This document shows, piece by piece, positions 1,120 to 20,663 of a stretch of DNA of 20,663 nt. Source of the stretch: a virus; IMG/VR virus record IMGVR_UViG_3300013131_000303, positions 1-20,663 of that record; one strand, written 5' to 3'. The notes below the pieces were generated by a model. It searched no databases. It saw only the letters and a program-made list of their open reading frames with translations, and was not told the DNA's origin. Position 1 is the first letter of the stretch. The number at the start of each line of letters is the position of its first letter. The position numbers and the translations under genes were made by a program.

Positions 1120-2859
1120 TTAAAACTCAAATTCAGAACTTCCACCTTGAGCACCACCCTGAGCTGGTGGTTCTGGAGCAGTTTGACCTCCTTGAGCAGG
1201 TGGTGCTTGAGCACCAGTATCCATTCCACCTTGAGCGCCAGTATCCATTCCACCTTGAGTATCCATTCCACCCTGAGCGCCTACATCCATTCCACTTTGA
1301 GCACTAGCCTGAGCTCCTCCAGAACCAACACCAGCAGCATCTTTAGCCCAGTATTTTTGATTTTCTGCTTTTTCTTCAGGAGTTAACTTAAATACATGAT
1401 CCATAATCCACTCTATATGGAAATAAGGTTTCTCACCATTCATAATACCAGTTAATGTCCCAATTGCCTCAGCTCTTTTAGCCAAATTGTTTATTTTCTT
1501 CCACTCTTCAAAGATTTGATTTGAATTAAAATCAATATCCATCTCATTCATTATAACCTCATCTTCTACAAGCTCTGGAAACTCAACCAACATTTGCAAC
1601 TTTATAGGCTTAACAATCAATTCTTTAAAATTAGCTCTTAACCTACCAATAAAATTATGAAACTTAACCTCATCATTTGTTAAACCAGCTTGATCTGATA
1701 TAAATGTTCCACCACCACTCTCTGCTTCAAACCTAGTAACTGGTATTTTAGAAGCTCTTTTAAGAGCCTGATGAAACCATTTTAACATAGATTCCTCATT
1801 TAAATCATGACCTTGTGGTGTCATTAACTCCATATTTGGAGTACCAGCATCACCTTCAGGAAACCAAACTTGTTTATTATATGGTATGTGTTTAGTACCA
1901 TTAACATTAATAGTACCCAATGTTTCATCAAATTCAATTTCTTCTGAATAATCTTGAATCAATTGACCAATTTGTTCTTCAGCTTTTTGTCGAGACATAC
2001 CCTTAATAGGAATAGTAAACTTTTGATAGATAGTAGCATTCATTATGTTAAACATAATTCTAGTCTGCTCTAATATTTTTAATTGATTATACGGCTTTAT
2101 CAAACCCTCAACATAAGAAGTTTCAGAATAATCATTCTGTGATGAATATGATATAAATACTATTTGAGAATCTAAAAATATTCTCCTCAATTGTGGATCT
2201 TCTGGAAATTGAATCCATAGATGCCCGATATTTGGCTCATAAGCAGGTACTATACTCTCTGGTCTTAACCTATTAAATGCGATAATATTCTTCTTTTTAT
2301 CATCCCAAACTAACTCAATTGCAACATAACCATCAATAAGGAAATCTTTCATCATTTGATATGCAGTTACACTATCAGAGAAACCATATTTATTATACAC
2401 TTTCTCAAAATACTCCTGATACTTATCCGTTATCTCCTTAGAATAATCATTTGATAAAGGAGATGGTGAGCAAAAATCCTTTGTATCATTATATACAATT
2501 GATTCATCAGCTATAGCACTAATAAAATCTCTAATTTCATCCTTAATGGAATATTCTCTTAATATTCTTCTTTTATCTGGATAAGATCTATCTAAATATG
2601 GTATTGATTTTCTATTTAATACAGAAGCGACTGCCCTTTGTGAAAAGAAATTGTACATAGAATCACCCTTTGCAGCATATGGATCTTCATTGATACCAAC
2701 ACCAACTTGGTTTCTAATGATCATATCGTCATAATTCATACCATAATTGGATAAATTACGAAGTATTCTATTAAATAGACCTTTATTTTCTACAGCAGAG
2801 TTGACAAAACCCATTCCATCACCACTGTTATTATTATTTCTATAATTATAAGAAGCCAT
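1120..2859 (-). CDS. gp20: Portal vertex protein (T4 gp20-like)
   Basis: 579 residues, slightly longer than T4 gp20 (524). The portal forms the dodecameric ring at one capsid vertex, through which DNA is packaged and to which the neck and tail attach. Family features include the region around KRRILREYSIKDEIRDFI, the stretch IELVWDDKKKNIIAFNRLRPE, FPEDPQLRRIFLDSQIVFIS, the glycine-rich GDAGTPNMELMTPQG, and LKRASKIPVTRFEAESGG followed by DEVKFHNFIGRLR. The extra length is mostly a C-terminal Gln/Gly-rich tail (about residues 517-574) with repeated GMD-containing units. The start at 2859 has no Shine-Dalgarno but an A/T-rich leader and a TATATATA 20 nt upstream. The preceding transcript ends in its own terminator, so the portal probably has its own promoter. 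The major capsid protein and prohead protease genes that often follow gp20 are absent from the window. Confidence 0.93.
   Translation of the reverse strand: MASYNYRNNNNSGDGMGFVNSAVENKGLFNRILRNLSNYGMNYDDMIIRNQVGVGINEDPYAAKGDSMYNFFSQRAVASVLNRKSIPYLDRSYPDKRRILREYSIKDEIRDFISAIADESIVYNDTKDFCSPSPLSNDYSKEITDKYQEYFEKVYNKYGFSDSVTAYQMMKDFLIDGYVAIELVWDDKKKNIIAFNRLRPESIVPAYEPNIGHLWIQFPEDPQLRRIFLDSQIVFISYSSQNDYSETSYVEGLIKPYNQLKILEQTRIMFNIMNATIYQKFTIPIKGMSRQKAEEQIGQLIQDYSEEIEFDETLGTINVNGTKHIPYNKQVWFPEGDAGTPNMELMTPQGHDLNEESMLKWFHQALKRASKIPVTRFEAESGGGTFISDQAGLTNDEVKFHNFIGRLRANFKELIVKPIKLQMLVEFPELVEDEVIMNEMDIDFNSNQIFEEWKKINNLAKRAEAIGTLTGIMNGEKPYFHIEWIMDHVFKLTPEEKAENQKYWAKDAAGVGSGGAQASAQSGMDVGAQGGMDTQGGMDTGAQGGMDTGAQAPPAQGGQTAPEPPAQGGAQGGSSEFEF
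1198..1310 (-). repeat. Short in-frame repeats in the portal C-terminal tail
   Basis: The codons for Gly-Met-Asp occur at 1219, 1243, 1261 and 1285 (plus-strand left ends), spaced 24, 18 and 24 nt, each in a unit like GAQGGMDT. All spacings are multiples of three, so copy-number changes keep the frame. The encoded tail is Gly/Gln/Ala/Pro-rich and probably disordered. Confidence 0.8.
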
Positions 2860-6142: not shown

Positions 6143-6763
6143 TTAATATCCAGGTATCATAGGAGGTGTAACTCCAAATGGTGGATCAATATACTCATCA
6201 ACAAAGTAATCCCATACGAAATCAACTTGTAGAGTTTCAATTGTACCATTCGTTGACCAATCAAGACCGTATCCAGCAATTTTCTTAATTTGAGCATTTT
6301 GGAAAGTAACTCTTCTCAAAACAACACCCTTTTTATCATGTTGATTAACAATGATAGTTCCGATTATATCAGACTTATAATGCATTGTCCCATCTTGAGA
6401 ATTAAATACTAAGTCATACCATGCTTTTAATGTAGACCAAGTTTCCATAGATCCAACTTGATTAACATTCACTTGAAATTTAATACTAATCTCACCACTA
6501 GTCTTAGCTGGTGTAGTTTGAAATACTCTAGTTGAATATTTAAATCTTTGTTCTTTTTGTGTGAAGTCAAACTCTGTAAGGTTGAAGTCAACACTAGTGG
6601 CATTTTCCAATAATAATACCGAGTTTCTTTGTTGGTTCTGCAAAATAGTAGGAAGTACAAATGTAACCTCAAACAAGTTAGTGTAAACTATCTCATCTGG
6701 AAATGTACCTGGTCCACCCGGAGATCCAACATTAGAGATTTGCGTGTAATGTGGTAATGGCAT
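6143..6763 (-). CDS. gp19: Tail tube protein (T4 gp19-like)
   Basis: 206 residues, against 163 in T4 gp19. Tail tube proteins stack as hexameric rings inside the contractile sheath and form the channel for DNA. The family pattern is visible: an N-terminal strand segment (YTNLFEVTFVLP), a central part with RFKYSTRVF, and a C-terminal half with WYDLVFNSQDG, then IIVNQHDKKGVVLRRVTFQNA, followed by the LDWSTNGTIETLQVDFVWDY end strand. The extra length is a Pro/Gly-rich N-terminus and a tail ending PPMIPGY. The leader is A/T-rich without a Shine-Dalgarno. A terminator follows the stop directly, so this highly expressed gene is probably monocistronic. The sheath gene that usually neighbours it is not in the window. 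Confidence 0.88.
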   Translation of the reverse strand: MPLPHYTQISNVGSPGGPGTFPDEIVYTNLFEVTFVLPTILQNQQRNSVLLLENATSVDFNLTEFDFTQKEQRFKYSTRVFQTTPAKTSGEISIKFQVNVNQVGSMETWSTLKAWYDLVFNSQDGTMHYKSDIIGTIIVNQHDKKGVVLRRVTFQNAQIKKIAGYGLDWSTNGTIETLQVDFVWDYFVDEYIDPPFGVTPPMIPGY

Positions 6764-8382: not shown

Positions 8383-9801
8383 TTAATCCAAACAAATACA
8401 ACTCCAACCCTTGTGCTTTCTACCATTCTTAGAAACTCTTGATAAATTACCAGGGTCTAAATCTCTATCTGAACAAAATTCCGATAGATTTTTTATAAAA
8501 AATTCAACACCAAATGGATCTGTTAGTTTATAATTTTTAGATCTTTTTTTATTTATATCAATCATTAATTTTGATTTCATTTCAATATTTTTAGTTAATG
8601 ATTTACATACAATTAAATTGTTATTTAAAATTATATCTCTGTAGTATTTTGATAAATCTTCATCATTTGAAAGTAATAAACCAATGTTATTATAGTTATA
8701 TTTTTCAATTAATTCAGTAATTAAATACTGACCACTATTATAATCTTTAAAAATATCGATAATATCTTCCTCTGTTAATATATTTTTTCTTTGTCTAAGA
8801 TTATATTTGGTTTTCAATTCCAAGTAAATTTGATTATATCTTCGTCTCTGATATCTAAAAGATAGTATCAAATCAACTTCTTTAGAATTAATTTTCAATT
8901 TGTCACAAATATCATTATTTGAAAAATTAAAAATGTGTCTTAGTTCAAAAACATCTTTTATAATTTCTTCTTTTATTATAATCTTATTAATTTTTATTCC
9001 ACTTTTTCTATTAATTTTCATTTTATTTTTCCGCTTCTCAATATTAAAAATCAAACCATCCTTTTCAACTTTATAGATATTTTGATTGTAAATAAGATGT
9101 CTTAATGAAATTATTTCAAACCCCGTCAATTTTGATATATCATATATACTCAATTTCTCATTCTCATACATGTCATGTATTTTCAAAACATCATCTCTAT
9201 TGAATTTTTTATATCGATTTACTTCTAATTTTAAATCATATTTCTCTTTAACATATTCATATTTTTTAACTCTGTTCAAAATAGAGGAGACATGATTACC
9301 ATTAATTCCCATCACCTTTGATATTTCACCATTACTCAATTTTAATTCATTTCTAAGATTAAAAATACCAATTATCTGTTCATCACTCAACTTTCTCATT
9401 CTTTCAAATAACTTAATCTTTTCCTCTTTACTTCTTCGAACTCCCAAACAGGAAGATGATTTAGGATTAGTATTATATCCAAATCTATCATCATAAGGTT
9501 TATATAAATCTAAATAAATTTGCTCCCTTTGTAATGAGATTTCTGGCGGACAAACCTCTAATATCGATATTTCAAAATATCCAAAGTTTGGATTTTGATT
9601 AAAACACCTCTGTAAGTGCTTTGAGTGATGTCTATTATTTATTAAATCACTAATATGAGATGTCAACCTTCTTGATAACCTACCAGAAGTCGAACCAATA
9701 TAAACTTTATTATTATTTTTATTTCTTATTTGATAGACTCCACTATTTTTAATAAGTTCTCGATCACTATCTATTAAAATTTCATATAAAATATTTATCA
9801 T
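8383..9801 (-). CDS. GIY-YIG homing endonuclease with four helix-turn-helix-like modules
   Basis: 472 residues. The N-terminal nuclease domain is complete: G21-V-Y23, Y34-I-G36, R45 and H49 in LSRRLTSH, and the catalytic Glu E93 in QREQIYLDLY. It is followed by at least four units of about 50 residues that each look like a helix-turn-helix: 138-190 (LSNGEISKVMGINGNHVSSI), 200-250 (LSIYDISKLTGFEIISLRHL), 278-330 (FSNNDICDKLKINSKEVDLI) and 342-395 (YLITELIEKYNYNNIGLLLS). The C-terminus (424-467) is the small module of phage homing enzymes (DPFGVEFFIKNLSEFC, then KHKGWSC). It lies 47 nt after the 260-residue gene, as a selfish element would. It is probably an active free-standing homing nuclease. 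Confidence 0.88.
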   Translation of the reverse strand: MINILYEILIDSDRELIKNSGVYQIRNKNNNKVYIGSTSGRLSRRLTSHISDLINNRHHSKHLQRCFNQNPNFGYFEISILEVCPPEISLQREQIYLDLYKPYDDRFGYNTNPKSSSCLGVRRSKEEKIKLFERMRKLSDEQIIGIFNLRNELKLSNGEISKVMGINGNHVSSILNRVKKYEYVKEKYDLKLEVNRYKKFNRDDVLKIHDMYENEKLSIYDISKLTGFEIISLRHLIYNQNIYKVEKDGLIFNIEKRKNKMKINRKSGIKINKIIIKEEIIKDVFELRHIFNFSNNDICDKLKINSKEVDLILSFRYQRRRYNQIYLELKTKYNLRQRKNILTEEDIIDIFKDYNSGQYLITELIEKYNYNNIGLLLSNDEDLSKYYRDIILNNNLIVCKSLTKNIEMKSKLMIDINKKRSKNYKLTDPFGVEFFIKNLSEFCSDRDLDPGNLSRVSKNGRKHKGWSCICLD

Positions 9802-10717: not shown

Positions 10718-13700
10718 ATGTCTGAATCATTAATTTTCTTTAACAAAGAAGGAGATAGTTTAAATTTCAAATATGATTTTATAGATGAAAGATTTGAAGG
10801 TGATATCCTTTTTCATGAAAACTCATCAGATACATATAAAACATATGGTTTATATGTTATGGAAAAAGTACCTTCTATTGAACTAGAATCACCAAATAGA
10901 TTGTCATTAAATAAATTTCAATTATTTAACGAATGGGGTGTACACTTCTATGAGAAAACTCTACAAAAGCAAATAATAACTAATATAGAGCCAGTAAATA
11001 ACGATTGGAACTTCTATTCTAAGTGGATATATGGTGATAATTTTGACATAAAATTCCCAATTGGTACATTAGTCAGCTTTAACAATCCAATATTAGAATT
11101 TACAGATGATATGAGAGTTTATACTGTTGTGTCAACCAAAAATGATGCTATAATGATAATATCAGATGTTGATAATGCAACATTTGAATCTAAATACTCA
11201 TCGATATATTCAAATTCGGAAACATGGAAAGACTTATATCTATTAAATTCGGTAAATTCAATAGGAATTTATAACTATGTAAACTCAAAGTTTGAGAATA
11301 ATTTATCAAATTGGAATGAACCAAATTTTTATGATAAGTTATTCAATGGTAAAAAACTCAATGTAGTAAATAGCAATTTAAATGATGGTACATACACTAT
11401 ATTAAATGATAAATTAATAGATCTGATACATTTCGAATACTCGACAAATCCAAGTAAATTAATTGGATCCGGAACTTTTTCAATTGAAGTAATAACAAAA
11501 AGTGATTTACCAAAAATATATGAGGGTGAAATAAACATAAAAGATAGCAAAATATATTTTAATAACTTTTTAGAAATTCCAACAAACCTGAAGCCTGGAT
11601 CGGAATTTACAATATCAGGGTCACAACAAAATATAAATTATTATAGAGTGGATAATATACCACAATTTAATAAAGTTTTAAATAAAACTTACTATGCAAC
11701 ACAATCACAAGTCATATATAATAATCAAATATGGGAATGTGTAAAAGCATATACACAAGATCAAGTAAATAACTCAACAATAACACCAGAAAACTCAGAT
11801 TATTGGAATAAAACGAAATACCTACCAGTAAGCGGTTTGAAAGATGAATACTTACAAAAATGTCAAATATATCTAACAACAAATAAAGATTACTTTGAAT
11901 ATGGTTGGACAAAAGATGCTGAAACAACATTATCATCAGTAGCTGAGAAATTTAAAAATGATTTAGATCTCTATAATATTGATTTATATTTTTCAAATAA
12001 TGAGTTGAAAGCTGACTTAAAATATTCTTCAAAATATGCAGAGGTTAACTTCTACTATACAACAGACAATAAGGTCTTAGTATCATCAACCATTCAAAAG
12101 AACGAAAAACTAATAGAAATATCAGAAGATCTAAATCATGAGTTAAATTATGATTATTCAAATAATACACAATATAATGTAGTATTCACAGATATTGACG
12201 ACTGGGGAATTAAATTAACAATAAACGGACAAATTTACGAGTCAGATGTTATATGGATTTACAATGGAGGAATACCAAATTTAGAAAGAACAATAGACAG
12301 AACTCTACGAAATTGGTTAACGATTAACTATGTGAAATTATACACCATTGGAATCGTAGCAGAAATTGATTTTATTGGAATATCATCAAACTACCAAAAC
12401 TCAATAATATTAAAAACATTTTTCCCAAATGTGCCATTATCACTGAAAGTTGAGGTTGGATCCGGTGGAAATTTCTATGTAGAAAACTCATTATTAGTTT
12501 TTAAAAACTTAACAAGTGATGATCCAAAAACTTTAACAAAAAACTTAACGATAACAATAAATGACACACCATATGAAATAAAAATGTCCACAACAATACC
12601 TATAACTCTAAGAGAATGGGTAAATAAATGGAGAATTAAATTATTAGAATATGGAATAATAGTTAAGAATATAAATAACTCAATTAAAGTCGATACAATA
12701 TACCCAAACAATAGAATAGATATATCAATAAATAACGGTAGAATACAAATACCTGGAAATGAAGACTTTTATATTTTAAATAAAAAAACTGGAAATAAGG
12801 GAATTGTTATCTCCTCAAACGAAATAACACTAAAAGATGATGAGTTTGATGATAAAAATTTTGAAAATATAGGAATATCAACCGGGATGATAATATCAAT
12901 TAATAACTCGGGATTTGTTTGGGATAACCAAGAATATAACGTTCAATATGTAGATAAAAATAAAGTAGGTCTTAGCTACAAAGGACCATTCTGGGGTCTA
13001 ACTAACTCAATTTATAATTCATCAGCTTACAACACAATTGGATTTAGTTTAGGATTTGGAATAACAGCAAGTTATACACCTGATTTTATAAAAGATTCGA
13101 ATCTAAATTTAAATCATTTCAACAAAACTTTATTCTCCACAAAAATAGAATCAAATGTTAAAGATTTTGACTTAAATGAAATTGAAATATCTGTAGATAA
13201 AATCTATGACATATTAACTGTTCAACTATCTAACTCATATTATATTTTAGCTAAAAAATCAACAAATACAATATTAATAAAGATAGATTCATTTACAAAT
13301 AAAATAAAAAATACAATAAACTTAGGAACTGACGATGGTATAAAATTAGAATATAACAATTTCAATAATCTTATTTATTGTTTATTAAAAAAAAGTTTAA
13401 TAACTGTAGATCCTATTATAGATATAACAAGTAAAATACTCACTACAAAAGTAGATTTTAAAACAATATCTATTAATAATCTAACTGGTGATTATTATAT
13501 CACAAATAACGACAATAACAACATAATCACATCAAAAACTATAATTAGTTTACCATCTAAATCTATATCTATAACAAAAGTAAATGAGAAGGAAAATAAA
13601 ATATACTTAATAAAAAGTAGTGGTGATGATATATATCAAATTAGTTCAAAATCAGTATGGTTAAAAACATTTAAATTATCCAACTTAGATAAAAGTTTTA

Positions 13701-16432
13701 TTGAATATGACTCAACAAACGGGAGTATAATAGTAAGAGACACCTCAAGAAATTTATATAGAATTATAGATGATACAGTGAGACCAATACTAAAATCGAG
13801 TGATATTGTAAAATCCAACACAATAGGCAATAACATAGTCTCTCTAAAAGACAACGAGATTTCATTTATAAACAATCTAAATAATACCGATAATACAAAT
13901 ATCTACAACTATACAGATATTAATTTGATATCAATATGCATAAATTATTATGACTCATTTATTTATATTTATGAAAAAAATAAAATATCAATACTAGATC
14001 AATTTGGAAAAACTCTAAAATCTAAACAATTACCAAACACATCTGATGTGAATGATAAAATCATATTCAACACAGATAGAAACAAAATATTAATAAACAA
14101 CAACAATAAATTATATGAAATAAATGTCTATTATGACAATGTCATTAATTATAAAAGTGAAATAAACGAATCTATAAAAGAGGATATATACGGAACATTG
14201 GATCTAAATTACACATCAAGAGAAAATATATGGATAAAAAGTAGAGAGTATGTAAGAAGACCCAGAGAAAATTATATCGGTGAAGTTCCGGTAAAATATT
14301 ACTGGGAATGGTATGATGATAGTAATCCAGAATTTTTTCTTTATGATATATCAGGAGATCAAATATCATCCGGCACTAGTTCATATAAATACACGGGAAC
14401 ATCACCACTTATTGATGTACCATTAAATAAGACCGCAAATAAAGATCTAAGCAAAATAGATAAACCAGAATATCAACAAACCGTTTTTGATGTTGTAGCA
14501 AAATCACTTGATTATATAAATGATTCAGAAAACTTTTCATCAGAACCAGAAGCGATAGAATTATTCATTGGGTTTAAATCCAATGACGAAGGACCTAAAT
14601 CTTCTGTATTACAAATGTTTAAGAAAGAAAATATTGAATTTAAAATACAATCAAACTCCGATTATAAAACACCAACCTTAAAATTCGAAACTCTGGGACT
14701 AATATTAACAAGTTCAGATACCGATAAAAGAGGTGTTATAACAATAAATACTAATGATAATATCTACTTTACAGGAAGAGGATTAAAAACAGGACAATTA
14801 ATATCTCTAACAATAAAGGACTTAACAAGCAAAGAGAATCAATACACATCAAAAAATAATGGATCCATATTCAAAATAAGAGAAGTGTATGCTAAACAAT
14901 TAGTCGTTGATTTTCTAAATATAGCTACGGATATGTTATATCCTGAAACATCAGTTATACTACACCCAACAATATCATTAAGAACCGAAACAACATTCAA
15001 AGTATTAGATAAAGAAATAGGAAGATTCAATGTATATGGACAAACAGAAATAGAAGATTTTAGATTTAAAACGCAATTAAATAATATCGGTAAAAATATA
15101 TCACCAAATGATATTTACATCTTTAAAGATTATGATATCTACGAAGGAGGAATAGACTGGACTTTCTTAAACAAAAAAAGAAAAGAACTCTTATTAGTTA
15201 GAAATGAAATATTCCCATATGTAGGATCATATAAGTCTATAATAAACGCAATAAATTATTTCGGATATAATGATCTAAAATTAAATGAATATTATAAAAA
15301 TATAGATAACAAATCACCAAATTTCTTAAAGTTATTTAAAGTTGAAATACCTGATATATTTGACAACACAATAGAAGGTTGGAATGATAATGACTTTCTT
15401 AAAAATACCATGCCTAATGAAAATTTTGAAGAAACCAATCTATTCAACTTATCATATGATATAACAAATAAATATGGTGATATAATACTAAACTACACAT
15501 TAGATGAAGTAACGATAAAACTACAAGGATTAAAAAAATGGCTAAAAGGGAATATAATACCATTAACACATAAGATATTAGATGTAACGGGTAACTCTTA
15601 TTTAAATGCAGAAACAACAATAAATCACAAACTTTCAGATGTTAGAATTTTCAAAAATAGTGAAAATATGACACCTATATCCTTTAAATTAAATGAAGCT
15701 TATCTACTACCGATAAATTCAGGATCAACCGTTTATAACTGTGTGCTAGATTTATATACAATAATAAATAATGATCTTAATATAAAACCACATAACGAAT
15801 ATTTGGATAAAATAAAATTACCAGACTATTATGATATTAAAATAAGGACTTGGAAAACCTACAAAGAATGGGAAGCATTTACTGAATATTCTAAGGGTGA
15901 AAAAGTTATCTATTATGGGAATATATACGAATCTGTTATAAACTCAAATAAAATGAACAGCCCCATTAAATGGGAAGCACTAATATCAGAATGGGAACCT
16001 ACTGGTAATTATGAAGTTGGAAACATAGTTAGATATGAAAATGAATACTACTCATACACAGGTCTAGGAAACGAAATTGAAAATCCAATAACATATGAAC
16101 TAAATGGATTAAACTACCAATATCCACCACCATCCATAGATAACGGAGATGGTTATAACTGGGTAATAATTACAGAATGGAGAAAAATAGGTTATGAGCC
16201 CGTACAGACTATAAATGAAAATAGAAAAGGTGATAATTTAACACCATTCAATTTTACTTTAGATGCAAACATAGATCCATTTGTAACGATAGAATTAACT
16301 TGTGATAATGGATATGGTATGATTTATAGAGATAGAAAAAACTATGAAATAAGAACTCTAAAAGATTTAAGTTCACCGATAAAATATATTGAACCAATCG
16401 GACCATTTGAACCAATTGCTTATATAAAATAA
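10718..16432 (+). CDS. Giant tail or baseplate protein with beta-propeller-like and carbohydrate-binding-like regions
   Basis: 1904 residues. The N-terminal 80 residues (LIFFNKEGDSLNFKYDF and following, up to LNKFQLFNEWGVHFYE) resemble the start of large structural proteins in T4-like phages. About 325-370 and again about 1717-1785 are short aromatic-rich units (YYATQSQVIYNNQIWECVKA; YSKGEKVIYYGNIYESVINS; YEVGNIVRYENEYYSYTG) like CBM5/12-type carbohydrate-binding repeats. Residues about 828-1147 have blade-like repeats of strand pairs with Ile-Lys-Ile and Asn-Lys-Ile-Tyr patterns, suggesting an NHL/YVTN-type beta-propeller. About 1482-1700 holds a segment (LVRNEIFPYVGSYKSIINAI, YFGYNDLKLNEYY, LKKWLKGNIIPLTHKI) that recalls baseplate-wedge or P2 gpI-like proteins. 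I infer a baseplate wedge or tail-tip component that contacts host glycans. It is monocistronic, ending in a terminator. Confidence 0.75.
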   Translation: MSESLIFFNKEGDSLNFKYDFIDERFEGDILFHENSSDTYKTYGLYVMEKVPSIELESPNRLSLNKFQLFNEWGVHFYEKTLQKQIITNIEPVNNDWNFYSKWIYGDNFDIKFPIGTLVSFNNPILEFTDDMRVYTVVSTKNDAIMIISDVDNATFESKYSSIYSNSETWKDLYLLNSVNSIGIYNYVNSKFENNLSNWNEPNFYDKLFNGKKLNVVNSNLNDGTYTILNDKLIDLIHFEYSTNPSKLIGSGTFSIEVITKSDLPKIYEGEINIKDSKIYFNNFLEIPTNLKPGSEFTISGSQQNINYYRVDNIPQFNKVLNKTYYATQSQVIYNNQIWECVKAYTQDQVNNSTITPENSDYWNKTKYLPVSGLKDEYLQKCQIYLTTNKDYFEYGWTKDAETTLSSVAEKFKNDLDLYNIDLYFSNNELKADLKYSSKYAEVNFYYTTDNKVLVSSTIQKNEKLIEISEDLNHELNYDYSNNTQYNVVFTDIDDWGIKLTINGQIYESDVIWIYNGGIPNLERTIDRTLRNWLTINYVKLYTIGIVAEIDFIGISSNYQNSIILKTFFPNVPLSLKVEVGSGGNFYVENSLLVFKNLTSDDPKTLTKNLTITINDTPYEIKMSTTIPITLREWVNKWRIKLLEYGIIVKNINNSIKVDTIYPNNRIDISINNGRIQIPGNEDFYILNKKTGNKGIVISSNEITLKDDEFDDKNFENIGISTGMIISINNSGFVWDNQEYNVQYVDKNKVGLSYKGPFWGLTNSIYNSSAYNTIGFSLGFGITASYTPDFIKDSNLNLNHFNKTLFSTKIESNVKDFDLNEIEISVDKIYDILTVQLSNSYYILAKKSTNTILIKIDSFTNKIKNTINLGTDDGIKLEYNNFNNLIYCLLKKSLITVDPIIDITSKILTTKVDFKTISINNLTGDYYITNNDNNNIITSKTIISLPSKSISITKVNEKENKIYLIKSSGDDIYQISSKSVWLKTFKLSNLDKSFIEYDSTNGSIIVRDTSRNLYRIIDDTVRPILKSSDIVKSNTIGNNIVSLKDNEISFINNLNNTDNTNIYNYTDINLISICINYYDSFIYIYEKNKISILDQFGKTLKSKQLPNTSDVNDKIIFNTDRNKILINNNNKLYEINVYYDNVINYKSEINESIKEDIYGTLDLNYTSRENIWIKSREYVRRPRENYIGEVPVKYYWEWYDDSNPEFFLYDISGDQISSGTSSYKYTGTSPLIDVPLNKTANKDLSKIDKPEYQQTVFDVVAKSLDYINDSENFSSEPEAIELFIGFKSNDEGPKSSVLQMFKKENIEFKIQSNSDYKTPTLKFETLGLILTSSDTDKRGVITINTNDNIYFTGRGLKTGQLISLTIKDLTSKENQYTSKNNGSIFKIREVYAKQLVVDFLNIATDMLYPETSVILHPTISLRTETTFKVLDKEIGRFNVYGQTEIEDFRFKTQLNNIGKNISPNDIYIFKDYDIYEGGIDWTFLNKKRKELLLVRNEIFPYVGSYKSIINAINYFGYNDLKLNEYYKNIDNKSPNFLKLFKVEIPDIFDNTIEGWNDNDFLKNTMPNENFEETNLFNLSYDITNKYGDIILNYTLDEVTIKLQGLKKWLKGNIIPLTHKILDVTGNSYLNAETTINHKLSDVRIFKNSENMTPISFKLNEAYLLPINSGSTVYNCVLDLYTIINNDLNIKPHNEYLDKIKLPDYYDIKIRTWKTYKEWEAFTEYSKGEKVIYYGNIYESVINSNKMNSPIKWEALISEWEPTGNYEVGNIVRYENEYYSYTGLGNEIENPITYELNGLNYQYPPPSIDNGDGYNWVIITEWRKIGYEPVQTINENRKGDNLTPFNFTLDANIDPFVTIELTCDNGYGMIYRDRKNYEIRTLKDLSSPIKYIEPIGPFEPIAYIK

Positions 16433-16460
16433 AAAAACCTCTTTAAAGAGGTTTTTTTAT
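16432..16460. terminator. Bidirectional intrinsic terminator
   Basis: CCTCTTT (16438-16444) and AAAGAGG (16445-16451) form a perfect palindrome flanked by seven A's and seven T's. It separates the convergent genes ending at 16432 and 16460. Confidence 0.85.
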
Positions 16461-17140
16461 TAATTTGTAGTAGTTTCAGTTTCTACTTCTGTAGTCTTTT
16501 TAGACTTCTTCTTTTTTGGCTCTAATTCAACACCTTCCTCAAATGAAGTAACCCAATCTTGAATATCAGATGATAGATTCTTACCATAATTATCATAATA
16601 ATTAAATACTTTAGAAATAGATCCAATTCTTTTCAATACTTGTGAGAACATATAAGCATCCTTTGTTAATCCCTTAACCTTATATTGAGCAATTAAATGA
16701 TAAACATAAGTAATCTCAGTAGCATTAACTGGAAAAGAAACCAATTCAGTATCATTAGTATATTTAGCATCTCTCATAGATCCCAAAAGATCAGTTAATT
16801 CAATAGCAAAGAAAACTGAATTCACATCATACTCTAATTTAGAAAGAACTAAGTCTGTTAAAAACTTCCACTGAGATCTATTTAAATGAAAATTATATTT
16901 AGTATCTCTTAATGTTGTAGCATAATTCTTCCACAATTCTTGAGATTGAGAATATAATTCATCTTTCTCAGTATCATTTTTACCTTTACCAGTATTTTTC
17001 TCTAAATACTCCTCAATAGTTGAGATTTTATTCTCTAATTCAGATTCATAAAAAGGTGTTAAGATTAAATTTTCTGTTTCATTTTCGAAAAATGAAATTT
17101 CAGGTCTAACTACATTTGTTTCAATTGTTTGATTTGACAT
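16460..17140 (-). CDS. Unknown virion-operon protein, 226 residues
   Basis: I do not recognise a family. The N-terminal 95 residues are acidic with probable helices, including SELENKISTIEEYLEKNTGK. The centre (about 90-180) is a helical bundle-like region with FHLNRSQWKFLTDLVLSKLE and the stretch KDAYMFSQVLKRIGSISK. The last 25 residues are a Lys-rich run followed by Thr/Glu (KKKKSKKTTEVETETTTN), probably disordered. It is the last gene of the right-hand minus-strand operon, 24 nt after the 81-residue gene, and ends at the bidirectional terminator. It could be a tail-assembly factor or a minor structural protein. Confidence 0.72.
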   Translation of the reverse strand: MSNQTIETNVVRPEISFFENETENLILTPFYESELENKISTIEEYLEKNTGKGKNDTEKDELYSQSQELWKNYATTLRDTKYNFHLNRSQWKFLTDLVLSKLEYDVNSVFFAIELTDLLGSMRDAKYTNDTELVSFPVNATEITYVYHLIAQYKVKGLTKDAYMFSQVLKRIGSISKVFNYYDNYGKNLSSDIQDWVTSFEEGVELEPKKKKSKKTTEVETETTTN

Positions 17141-17164: not shown

Positions 17165-17410
17165 TTAACTGTTAATTCTTTCCATAGAATTAACATCATT
17201 AAAATTCAATGATGTTAAAGTTTCTAACTTATCTTTAGCATTAGTGTATTTCTCAATCCACTTATCATGTTCATCCATTAAATCAGAATGTTCTCCGATA
17301 GCTGCTAAATTTCTATCAGAAAAATAAAGTGATAAGTTAGCCTCAGCCTCAGCCATTTCAGCTTCATATCTCTTTTTTAACGCGTTTAAATATCTATTTC
17401 CTATACTCAT
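17165..17410 (-). CDS. Small helical protein, 81 residues
   Basis: No family recognised. The sequence is almost wholly helical with heptad-like spacing: NRYLNALKKRYEAEMAEAEA in the first 25 residues, then a second helix around DEHDKWIEKYTNAKDKLETL. It looks like a two-helix coiled-coil hairpin with a break near residues 30-40. The ATG is 2 nt after the stop of the preceding 145-residue gene, so translation is coupled. It is probably a small assembly factor or chaperone of the tail operon; this is inference from size, fold and position. Confidence 0.75.
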   Translation of the reverse strand: MSIGNRYLNALKKRYEAEMAEAEANLSLYFSDRNLAAIGEHSDLMDEHDKWIEKYTNAKDKLETLTSLNFNDVNSMERINS

Positions 17411-17412
17411 AA

Positions 17413-17850
17413 TTAAATAATAAATTCTTCATCGCCTTTAGCGTCTTTTTGTTGATCTACAAACAATTCCTCTACCTTGTTAGCCCTCGCCACTTTTTCG
17501 ACTCCCCATTTATTAACAATAGATGTGAAAGTATTTAAATCAGTACCAACTAATTTAATTTTACCACTCTCCATATTGATATTAATCTTATCAATTTCTT
17601 GCTCAATAAGAATTGTGATTGAATCGTCATCAAAAGCATTTAATAAATCTTCATTAATTGAAATTAATAATTCTTTACCAAGAGCAAATGCATATTGATC
17701 TGATATCTTAGATACTTTAATTAATTGTTTTTGCTTTGAATTTCCTTGAAAAAGGAATCTGATATTCATTGTGAATGATTTTCTATTGAAAATATCCATA
17801 AATAATTCCTCAGTAGTTGAATCAACTTCATAGTAAGTTTCTTTTGCCAT
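17413..17850 (-). CDS. Phage metallopeptidase-like protein lacking zinc ligands
   Basis: 145 residues from the ATG at 17850 (MAKETYYEV). A longer frame exists from an ATG at 17883, but those 11 extra codons run through an exact TATAAATA box at 17868-17875, so the inner start is preferred. The centre, LLNAFDDDSITILIEQEIDK (69-88), followed by TDLNTFTSIVNKWG (103-116), aligns by eye with the putative phage metallopeptidase pattern (DxxxxxLxxHExxH, later HDFxxFxxIIxRYG). Here the HExxH-like site reads QEIDK and the third His is Thr, so zinc ligands are missing. ARANKVEELFVDQQ follows. I infer an inactive relative used as a structural or regulatory protein; the alignment is from memory. It heads a coupled run of three genes. 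Confidence 0.6.
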   Translation of the reverse strand: MAKETYYEVDSTTEELFMDIFNRKSFTMNIRFLFQGNSKQKQLIKVSKISDQYAFALGKELLISINEDLLNAFDDDSITILIEQEIDKININMESGKIKLVGTDLNTFTSIVNKWGVEKVARANKVEELFVDQQKDAKGDEEFII

Positions 17851-17867
17851 TTTATAATATTGTTTTT

Positions 17868-17875
17868 TATTTATA
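17868..17875 (-). promoter_or_regulatory. Candidate T4-type late promoter box TATAAATA
   Basis: Exact TATAAATA on the minus strand, 17 nt before the ATG at 17850. Initiation about 6 nt downstream would leave a leader of about 11 nt. It explains why the upstream ATG at 17883 is not the likely start. Confidence 0.6.
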
Positions 17876-17895
17876 AAACGCAATTAGATAAAAGT

Positions 17896-18330
17896 TTATA
17901 TGAAAATAAATAAAAGTGTGATAATTAAAATTGATAATAAAGATATTGGCAAAAATCTAAAATAGAATTTATCATAAAACTCATTTGATCTAAATAATTT
18001 AAATCCTATAACAACTTTCCAAGAAAATTTATCAACTTTTGACACCTCATAGAAATCATACATTTCATTCAAACCCTTTGAATTTAAAAAAGTTGCCAAT
18101 TCATTTGAAAACTCTCTAATATAAGGCTCGGATATCCTATCAATATCACTTTTTCGTAAAGTAAATGCCTCACCGATTAATTCTTCAGGAATATTTAAAA
18201 CAGTATATAACCTATATGCTCTATCAACTCTGATACCAAAATCTCTATTCAAAACATCACTATTTTCTTTTAGAGTTTTCCTAAAAGTTTTGAATAATCT
18301 CAATTTTTTAAAGAATCCAATATTTTTCAT
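17896..18330 (-). CDS. Tail-anchored membrane protein of unknown role
   Basis: 144 residues. The N-terminus is basic (MKNIGFFKKLRLFKTFRKTL). A compact soluble region follows (about 30-120) with RAYRLYTVLNIPEELIGEAF and DIDRISEPYIREF. The last 20 residues are one strong hydrophobic segment (LPISLLSILIITLLFIFI) ending at the C-terminus, so the protein should be tail-anchored with its bulk in the cytoplasm. I have no named family. It lies 29 nt after the repeat-protein gene and before an internal late promoter. A membrane protein inside a virion operon is unusual; it could help assembly at the membrane, act in lysis, or be part of the tail tip. Confidence 0.72.
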   Translation of the reverse strand: MKNIGFFKKLRLFKTFRKTLKENSDVLNRDFGIRVDRAYRLYTVLNIPEELIGEAFTLRKSDIDRISEPYIREFSNELATFLNSKGLNEMYDFYEVSKVDKFSWKVVIGFKLFRSNEFYDKFYFRFLPISLLSILIITLLFIFI

Positions 18331-18359: not shown

Positions 18360-20663
18360 TTACTTAGTTTGTGAAGCAGGACCGGCACCACCACCACTTT
18401 CACCTAATTTTTTATAAATAAAGTCATCAAATGCAGAACCCTCAGAGAAGATTTGGTTTAAATTGAATAATAATTGAGCTATTGTATTTAATCTAATCAG
18501 CTCTGGACTCTTCTTGACATCTTTACCAACAATAGTCTTAGAATTAACCCCGGTCTTTTCACCATCTTTCTTACCAACACCAGAACCAGATTTAGATTTA
18601 CCCTCTAACATTTTAGATAAAGCTGAAGATCTAGATTCCAAAACTTTAAGTACCTTATCAAGAGCCTTAGCATCAACAACCGATAAAGTAGCGATATTAG
18701 ATGTCAAATCATTTAATTGTTTTAATTTATCAGTATTAACATTCTTAATAGATGATGTAAATTTGCTTAAAGATTTTGACAACTTGTCAAATGATTTAGC
18801 CATCTTAACTATACCATCAGTTATATTATTAATTGACTTTTTATCAAAAGTTTTAGAATCGATTAAACCTTTCTTTTGACTATCTTTAATTGTTTTAAGT
18901 AGTTTAACATAACTACTTATATTTGATATCATATTTTTAATATATTTATTAGACATATTATTTGAAAAATACTTAGAATTATTTGAAAATCTAATAGATA
19001 TTCTAACAATTTCATCAACTATAGACTCAACTGATGATTTACCAAATCCAAACCTCAAACTGTTCTTTAATTTATTAAATGACCTAATACTATTAATCAT
19101 ATTGTTTAAATTATTATTAGCAACAGTACTAAATTTAACTTTTGATAATTTACGAGAAGTCTCAACAATAGAATTAACCAACTTATTAAAACTAGACATT
19201 TTAATAAAATTAAAAATTGATGTCGAATTCAAAATTCTCTGGAATTTTGAAATAGCCTTATAAACACCAGATGACCACTCAGAACTCGGATACTTAGTAT
19301 AATTACCACCTGCTAATATAACACTAGCACTCTTTATACCCATAGAAACCGATCTAATCGAAGAAGTAAATTCTTCAACATCAGGAGCTGAACTAAACCA
19401 ACCACTACTATCAGATAACATCTTATAAACAGGCATAAATCCCTTAATAGCAGCACTAACACCACTCGACCATTCAGCACTAGGACCATTTTTATAAACA
19501 CCATCACCAACTGCTAAACTCTTAGCTGCCGCAACTATACCAGCTGAAACAGACTTGATTGCTGAAACAAAATCATCAACATCAGGCCCCGAACTAAACC
19601 AACCACTACTATCAGATAACATCTTATAAACAGGCATAAAACCCTTAATAGCAGCACCTACACCATTTGACCATTCAAAACTAGGACCATTTTTATAAAC
19701 AGCATCACCAACTGCTAAACTCTTAGCCGCTGCAACTATACCAGCTGAAACAGACTTGATTGCTGAAACAAAATCATCAACATCAGGTGCTGAATTAAAC
19801 CAACCACTACTATCTGATAATATCTTATAAACGGGCATAAATCCCTTAATAGCAGATCCTACACCATTTGACCATTCAAAACTAGGACCATTTTTATAAA
19901 CACTCTCACCAACCGCTAAACTCTTAGCAGCGGCAACTATACCTCCAGACATAGACTTAATAGCAGTAACAAAATCATCAACATCTGGCGCTGAATTAAA
20001 CCAACCACTACTATCTGACAACAATTTATAAATAGGAGTAAACGCTCTTAAAGCAGAAGAAACACCATCAGCCCACTCAACTGTTGGTCCATTTTTATAA
20101 ACACCCTCACCAACCGCTAAACTCTTAGCTGCCTCAACTATACCTCCAGACATAGACTTAATAGCGGTGACAAAATCATCAACATCAGGTAAAGAATTAA
20201 ACCAACCACTACTATCAGATAATAATTTATAAATAGGAGTAAACGCTCTTAAAGCAGAAGAAACACCATCAGCCCATTCAACTGTTGGGCCGTTTTTATA
20301 AACACCCTCACCAACTGCCAAACTTTTAGCCGCCTCAACTATACCACCAGCCATAGATTTAATTGCAATGACAAAATCATCAATGCTCGGTGGAGAATCG
20401 AACCAACCATCAGAATCTGACAACAACTGATAAATAGGAGAAAATGCTCTCAATGCAGATGAAACTCCACTTGACCACTCTTCCGTTGGACCGTTTTTAT
20501 AAACACCCTCACCAACTGCTAAGCTTTTAGCAGCAGAAACTATACCAGTAGATATAGTTTGAATTGCTTTGGAAAAATCTTCAATACTAGGACCAGCAAA
20601 CCAACCAATGGAATCATCCAACATTTCATAAACTGAAGAAAATCCTTTAATTGCAGTAGCAAC
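18360..20663 (-). CDS. Tandem-repeat tail protein, tape-measure candidate (5' partial)
   Basis: The frame is open to the window edge: 13 codons before the Met at 20624 read VATAIKGFSSVYE, which fits the end of another repeat unit, so that Met is internal. At least 767 residues are visible. The first part is seven units of 63-67 residues with consensus-like landmarks SDSSGWF, then DDFVTAIKS, GIVAAAKSLAVGE, VYKNGP, W, and AIKGFMPVYK. Residues about 466-640 of the visible chain are helical with shorter, decayed versions of the same paired-helix pattern (SIVETSRKLSK / MINSIRSFNKL; EIVRISIRFSN / MISNISSYVKL). The end is low complexity (GKSKSGSGVGKK, and GGGAGPASQTK at the stop). Long helical repeats with spaced Trp and Phe are typical of tape-measure proteins, but other tail or tip roles are possible. 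Confidence 0.7.
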   Translation of the reverse strand, partial: VATAIKGFSSVYEMLDDSIGWFAGPSIEDFSKAIQTISTGIVSAAKSLAVGEGVYKNGPTEEWSSGVSSALRAFSPIYQLLSDSDGWFDSPPSIDDFVIAIKSMAGGIVEAAKSLAVGEGVYKNGPTVEWADGVSSALRAFTPIYKLLSDSSGWFNSLPDVDDFVTAIKSMSGGIVEAAKSLAVGEGVYKNGPTVEWADGVSSALRAFTPIYKLLSDSSGWFNSAPDVDDFVTAIKSMSGGIVAAAKSLAVGESVYKNGPSFEWSNGVGSAIKGFMPVYKILSDSSGWFNSAPDVDDFVSAIKSVSAGIVAAAKSLAVGDAVYKNGPSFEWSNGVGAAIKGFMPVYKMLSDSSGWFSSGPDVDDFVSAIKSVSAGIVAAAKSLAVGDGVYKNGPSAEWSSGVSAAIKGFMPVYKMLSDSSGWFSSAPDVEEFTSSIRSVSMGIKSASVILAGGNYTKYPSSEWSSGVYKAISKFQRILNSTSIFNFIKMSSFNKLVNSIVETSRKLSKVKFSTVANNNLNNMINSIRSFNKLKNSLRFGFGKSSVESIVDEIVRISIRFSNNSKYFSNNMSNKYIKNMISNISSYVKLLKTIKDSQKKGLIDSKTFDKKSINNITDGIVKMAKSFDKLSKSLSKFTSSIKNVNTDKLKQLNDLTSNIATLSVVDAKALDKVLKVLESRSSALSKMLEGKSKSGSGVGKKDGEKTGVNSKTIVGKDVKKSPELIRLNTIAQLLFNLNQIFSEGSAFDDFIYKKLGESGGGAGPASQTK
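19230..20663 (-). repeat. 201-bp in-frame tandem repeat array
   Basis: Six units of about 201 nt (20424-20624, 20223-20423, 20022-20222, 19821-20021, 19620-19820, 19419-19619; limits approximate within one codon), one shorter unit (19230-19418), and the end of another at the window edge. Anchors such as ACCAACCACTACTATC recur every 201 nt. Units 2 and 3 are almost identical in their second half, and units 4-6 share another variant (AIKGFMPVYK), which suggests duplication and homogenisation. Confidence 0.93.

Follow-up and report, generated by a model that had tools for sequence, protein, structure and literature searches.

The window, by which we mean the whole stretch of DNA analysed here, is a 20,663-base IMG/VR virus fragment (IMGVR_UViG_3300013131_000303). 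Its end is occupied by a repeat gene, noted in a preliminary description of this DNA, that lies on the minus strand. Since the open frame at 18360-20663 runs off the contig end, the N-terminus of this gene is missing. The genes and features are as follows, with repeat units numbered according to sister contig L002.

18360..20663, minus strand: tape-measure-like gene, C-terminal 767 codons plus stop (ORF, open at the contig end)
20502..20663, minus strand: partial unit, u3 of L002 (unit mapping and comparison with L002)
20301..20501, minus strand: 67-aa unit u4 (unit mapping and DNA identities)
20100..20300, minus strand: 67-aa unit u5, 92% DNA identity to u6
19899..20099, minus strand: 67-aa unit u6 (unit mapping)
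19698..19898, minus strand: 67-aa unit u7, 93.5% DNA identity to u8
19497..19697, minus strand: 67-aa unit u8 (unit mapping)
19302..19496, minus strand: 65-aa edge unit u9, grouped in the unit tree with the final units of L003 and L004
about 19134..19301 (boundary approximate), minus strand: degenerate unit (YTKYPSSEW...), read from the sequence
18363..19133 (start approximate), minus strand: family-wide C-terminal domain with motif KFxxxIxxIDxxKLxxLxxLTxN
17896..18330, minus strand: 144-aa protein, adjoining the repeat gene in 74/80 loci, mostly 0-40 bp downstream
17413..17883, minus strand: 156-aa protein, conserved neighbour in 74/80 loci
17165..17410, minus strand: 81-aa protein, conserved neighbour in 38/80 loci
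16460..17140, minus strand: 226-aa protein, conserved neighbour in 74/80 loci
10718..16432, plus strand: 1904-aa probable baseplate protein, close to the repeat gene in 61/80 loci, usually on the opposite strand
6143..6763, minus strand: tail tube protein (phrog_45, weak Phage_T4_gp19)
1120..2859, minus strand: T4-type portal protein (phrog_213, E 2e-57; Portal_T4)

Profile matches show that the window also encodes a head-completion nuclease and an SbcD/gp47-like subunit. Residues 1434-1660 of the 1904-aa protein are common to PTm1, MA9V and Lak phages. Two ORFs on the minus strand (440-1090 and 8383-9801) resemble GIY-YIG homing endonucleases, as judged by their sequence, and lie by the portal gene and the gp47-like gene, respectively. 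A short tandem repeat with 24- and 42-bp periods is present at 1206-1304, at the end of the portal gene.

The 67-residue periodicity that had been noted in the repeat gene is real. Units measure 65-67 aa. TRF reports a period of 201 bp between 19368 and 20552; its score of 1255, or 1422 when the period is doubled, greatly exceeds the threshold. Where seven in-frame units had been counted, six are complete and one is partial, after which a single degenerate unit follows. The proposed gradient of decay towards the C-terminus was not confirmed: what follows the degenerate unit is a different helical domain that is found family-wide and also reaches PTm1. Identity between the window and L003 is 65% for this domain versus 86% for the neighbouring 226-aa gene; the domain evolves faster and is therefore conserved in pattern rather than slow.

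Sister contigs were used for reconstruction of the complete gene. L002 (IMGVR_UViG_3300013132_000131) represents the same phage as the window, with 99.976% identity over 12.3 kb, and contains an array of nine soluble units, upstream of which lie hydrophobic units with the same period. At its 3' end, L025 (IMGVR_UViG_3300013126_004149) is identical to the first 123 bases of L002. Joined in silico, L025 and L002 imply a protein of about 1,870 aa for the window's clade (828 + 1083 - 41), a figure that may be off by at least one unit since the join sits within the repeats.

A search with the N-terminal alignment as query yielded 80 viral contigs, 74 of which contain a full-length gene. The 74 proteins, 60 of them distinct, have 956-2,959 aa (median 1,220) and share a constant plan: a coiled coil of about 100 aa at the N-terminus (MDKxLLxALxNLSxALE), hydrophobic hairpin repeats, a further set of hydrophobic repeats with YxxYPxxxW, soluble repeats with GPxxxW and the C-terminal domain. 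According to the unit model, family members usually have 3-7 units, in most without evident pattern; expanded arrays are found in the window's clade (nine units in L002, 13 soluble units in L004) and in L055/L056. The gene was single-copy in all seven records checked, including LR745206, LR756502 and LR756501 (634-735 kb). These three metagenomic megaphages and LR756500 are direct family members with proteins of 995-1,801 aa, but their units are fewer or more diverged than those of the window, and in LR756501 the period has shrunk to 58-63 aa. The GTDB genome search identified one contig only, in a Rickettsiaceae MAG, which probably is a binned phage contig. In L005 (7319-11773), an extra proline-rich tandem repeat, KPTLPKxDLPKLPKLDFxF, follows the coiled coil and precedes the hydrophobic part (residues of about 118-400); the other four proteins in alignment A1 lack it. 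In L090 (9893-13755) the gene lies in two overlapping frames, by assembly error or real frameshift, and in LR756501 the repeat gene is followed, about 14 kb downstream, by a DnaK-like chaperone gene (L008:35053-36921, minus strand).

Searches of Pfam, PHROGs and NCBIfam gave no usable family name. ApoLp-III, phrog_29988 and NF038080 were rejected as identities, their short matches being due to helix composition or to summing across repeats; the peptidoglycan-binding domain NF038080 reaches 46 bits against a cut-off of 55 when summed over the repeats, and no stretch passes alone. Matches from the PDB profile search (designed coiled coils, GldL) were taken as a composition effect. The 1989-aa protein of Lak-B6 (L145:27054-33026, minus strand, code 15) has 20 hydrophobic segments in a layout that resembles the family, but was not included since its homology is not significant. 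In the literature searched, of which coverage was partial, we found no description of the repeat, of the family or of one-unit variation in nature. The family is new here, as are its architecture and the unit-by-unit variation among natural relatives.

Units of L002 show 59-94% identity to each other at the DNA level, and the most alike are neighbours: u2/u3 (94.4%), u5/u6 (92.0%) and u7/u8 (93.5%). Sub-types are hence clustered, as had been described, albeit in pairs (W3-W4 and W5-W6 in window numbering) rather than as units 2-3 and 4-6. Where the members of such a pair differ, most of the changes are synonymous (pN/pS 0.07-0.22). A tree built from 58 soluble units of 11 proteins groups the units by genome, with 18 label changes versus 40.5 when shuffled and none of 200 shuffles as low as 18. 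Edge units are orthologous, the first units of L002 and L004 grouping with one another within the window's clade, as do the last ones of L002, L003 and L004, although single forks are weak because the tree has few columns. The pattern is that of concerted evolution: replacement affects internal units, and the edges escape it. Among 13 close pairs, defined as pairs of proteins at least 85% identical, six have a long indel of 58, 60, 61, 83, 85 or 118 aa, each corresponding to one or two whole units, and no other indel of at least four residues was seen in the 13 pairs. The recent unequal recombination suggested in the preliminary description is supported by internal units that cluster by genome, orthologous edge units and close relatives that differ by whole units.

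What the gene encodes was deduced from synteny, homology and size. A sheath gene lies 0.65-1.2 kb upstream on the same strand in four loci (L074, L078, L092 and L103). In LR756502, a complete 642-kb genome that was read whole, the repeat gene is situated in the tail region, with tube (180254), homologue of the 1904-aa protein (185346) and sheath (192324) within 17 kb. There, it is the only ORF of more than 700 aa rich in hydrophobic segments, with 14 whereas others have at most three, and no rival tape-measure candidate was found among ORFs of this size in LR756502, the genome searched for one. Profile comparison identified homologues in cultured Bacteroidota myophages, namely MA9V1_009/MA9V2_061, PAU gp97, pT24 BPT24_118, PTm1 ORF-027/028 and MaF61 ORF115. 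The family profile matches PTm1 ORF-028 with an E-value of 5e-10, and hhalign of the family versus the five cultured-phage proteins gave 98.4% (E 6.6e-15), compared with 18% (E 1.3e-3) for reversed and about 0.1% for block-shuffled controls. At least in PTm1, PAU and MA9V the homologues sit shortly after sheath and tube or tube-like genes. They share the similar size and hydrophobic middle of the family, with 883-1096 aa, but lack a long homogenised array and are annotated as hypothetical or misnamed ('ubiquitin-like'); the MA9V homologue has repeats of about 87 aa, judged by eye, near its C-terminus. PTm1 ORF-027 and ORF-028 (AP019524 27670-30320; L144:12671-15321), annotated as 'hypothetical' and 'ubiquitin-like proteins', look like a single tape-measure-like gene that a frameshift has divided in two.

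Protein length and tail length could be compared for cultured phages. Tails of MA9V-1 and MA9V-2 measure 170.34 nm (PMC10537231) and 166 nm (PMC13414440), respectively, which for their 1082-aa proteins corresponds to 1.57 and 1.53 Å/aa, close to the TP901-1 deletion slope of 1.53 Å/aa ((118-65 nm)/347 aa; PMC5099701), although these two close relatives amount to little more than one data point. The MaF61 candidate, with 892 aa for a tail of about 170 nm (1.9 Å/aa), fits poorly and counts against a tape measure. Other points against are the 14-25 hydrophobic segments, which are many for a tape measure, the Pro/Gly loops that occur twice per unit, unlike one continuous helix, and the position of the gene in LR756501, far from the homologue of the 1904-aa gene. 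Curated tape-measure families gave no significant match, the nearest being phrog_5755 (E 0.004-0.03), a model that is silent in 13 genomes. Both structure models predict the protein to be all-helical throughout, at low confidence (pLDDT 60 and 47). Taken together, we consider it very probable that the gene encodes the tape measure protein of a contractile-tailed, T4-type megaphage, from a group that, judging by its cultured relatives, probably infects Bacteroidota. The identity proposed in the preliminary description is not proven, but it has good support: synteny, homology to positional tape measures, the lack of a rival in a complete relative and the match with MA9V-1 and MA9V-2 tail size all favour it.

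The hydrophobic segments, and the fact that two family members touch a DNA-ejection PHROG at an E-value of about 1e-3, would also suit a virion-borne membrane-channel or DNA-ejection protein, with another protein acting as ruler and repeat number tuning the channel itself or how far the protein reaches across the envelope, rather than tail length. We deem this very unlikely, given that LR756502 has no other long helical candidate among ORFs of more than 700 aa and that the protein suits the tails of MA9V-1 and MA9V-2 in size. Moreover, known tape measures such as that of TP901-1 carry membrane segments too, and ruler and channel roles are therefore not mutually exclusive.

Collapse or expansion of repeats during assembly could mimic variation between near-identical contigs: L052 and L053 are 99.98% identical and differ by an extra 255 bp that is a copy with one mismatch, which may be an artefact, and both the window and L002 break off within the array; exact repeats in the L002 gene reach 117 bp at most. 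As a general explanation this is nonetheless unlikely, since assembly hardly accounts for the differences in L099/L102 and L032/L034 or, less strictly, in L093-L095/L097. Nothing else in the L099 gene closely resembles its extra unit (best 27 bp at 85%). The one in L032 and L033 shows 20 mismatches to the neighbour unit over 237 bp, and both forms occur in several assemblies each; L093-L095 agree among themselves. Much harder to set aside is the possibility that the gene is a tape measure of which unit number drifts neutrally within wide limits, rather than adjusting tail length. Tandem arrays change by slippage anyway and most members have 3-7 units without evident pattern; we regard such drift as a serious contender, if somewhat short of an even chance. 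Constraint within units is strong (pN/pS 0.07-0.3), and close pairs show indels of at least four residues only as whole in-frame units. Both observations speak against drift, but they point to constraint on the units and not directly on their number.

A tape measure of this type would function as follows. While the tail assembles, several copies of the protein would lie in its lumen as extended helices, with tube and sheath growing up to the end of the tape measure; upon contraction the protein would exit the tail and its many hydrophobic hairpins would aid DNA in crossing the membrane. Slippage or unequal recombination between alike units would add or remove whole units in frame, such that internal units stay similar and edge units diverge. 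Tubes of the T4 type have roughly 4 nm per ring. A 67-aa unit corresponds to about 10 nm at 1.5 Å/aa, or about 2.5 rings rather than a whole number, and single-unit changes may therefore round to whole rings. Each added unit would lengthen the ruler by about 10 nm, and tails predicted for the family at 1.5 Å/aa range from about 143 to 444 nm. Given that close relatives differ by whole units, tails have probably become longer or shorter by single steps of fixed size. The earlier notion of a built-in tail-length switch is plausible in the evolutionary sense. It is rather doubtful that the array behaves as a contingency-like locus, in which unit number would shift often within a population and tails, varying in steps of about 10 nm, would be selected by the thickness of host envelope or capsule.

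The family can be placed beside two known rulers. The classic protein ruler, as proposed here for the window family, is gpH of phage lambda, of which in-frame deletions reportedly shorten the tail (work of Katsura and Hendrix in 1984 and Katsura in 1987); lambda is not known to have such a homogenised array. Tape measures are established to set tail length, and for TP901-1 it is already known that their repeats can alter it: removal of repeats shortens the tail proportionally, by about 1.5 Å per residue, and the authors of that work have proposed that repeats facilitate duplication and deletion (PMC5099701). The TP901-1 protein resembles the family in its combination of repeats and hydrophobic segments, but belongs to a siphophage and has aromatic repeats of 11/18 aa and two hydrophobic regions, whereas the family has two-helix units of 58-87 aa and 14-25 hydrophobic segments. 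A survey of moraphages, jumbo phages of Bacteroidota, could not find a tape-measure gene (PMC12619734), and the window family is a candidate to fill this gap. For a large group of giant phages in which the gene had no annotation, a likely tape measure can now be named. The family also offers rulers that vary naturally in steps of whole units, and hence the link between ruler length and tail length, as well as its evolution, becomes testable in natural variants.
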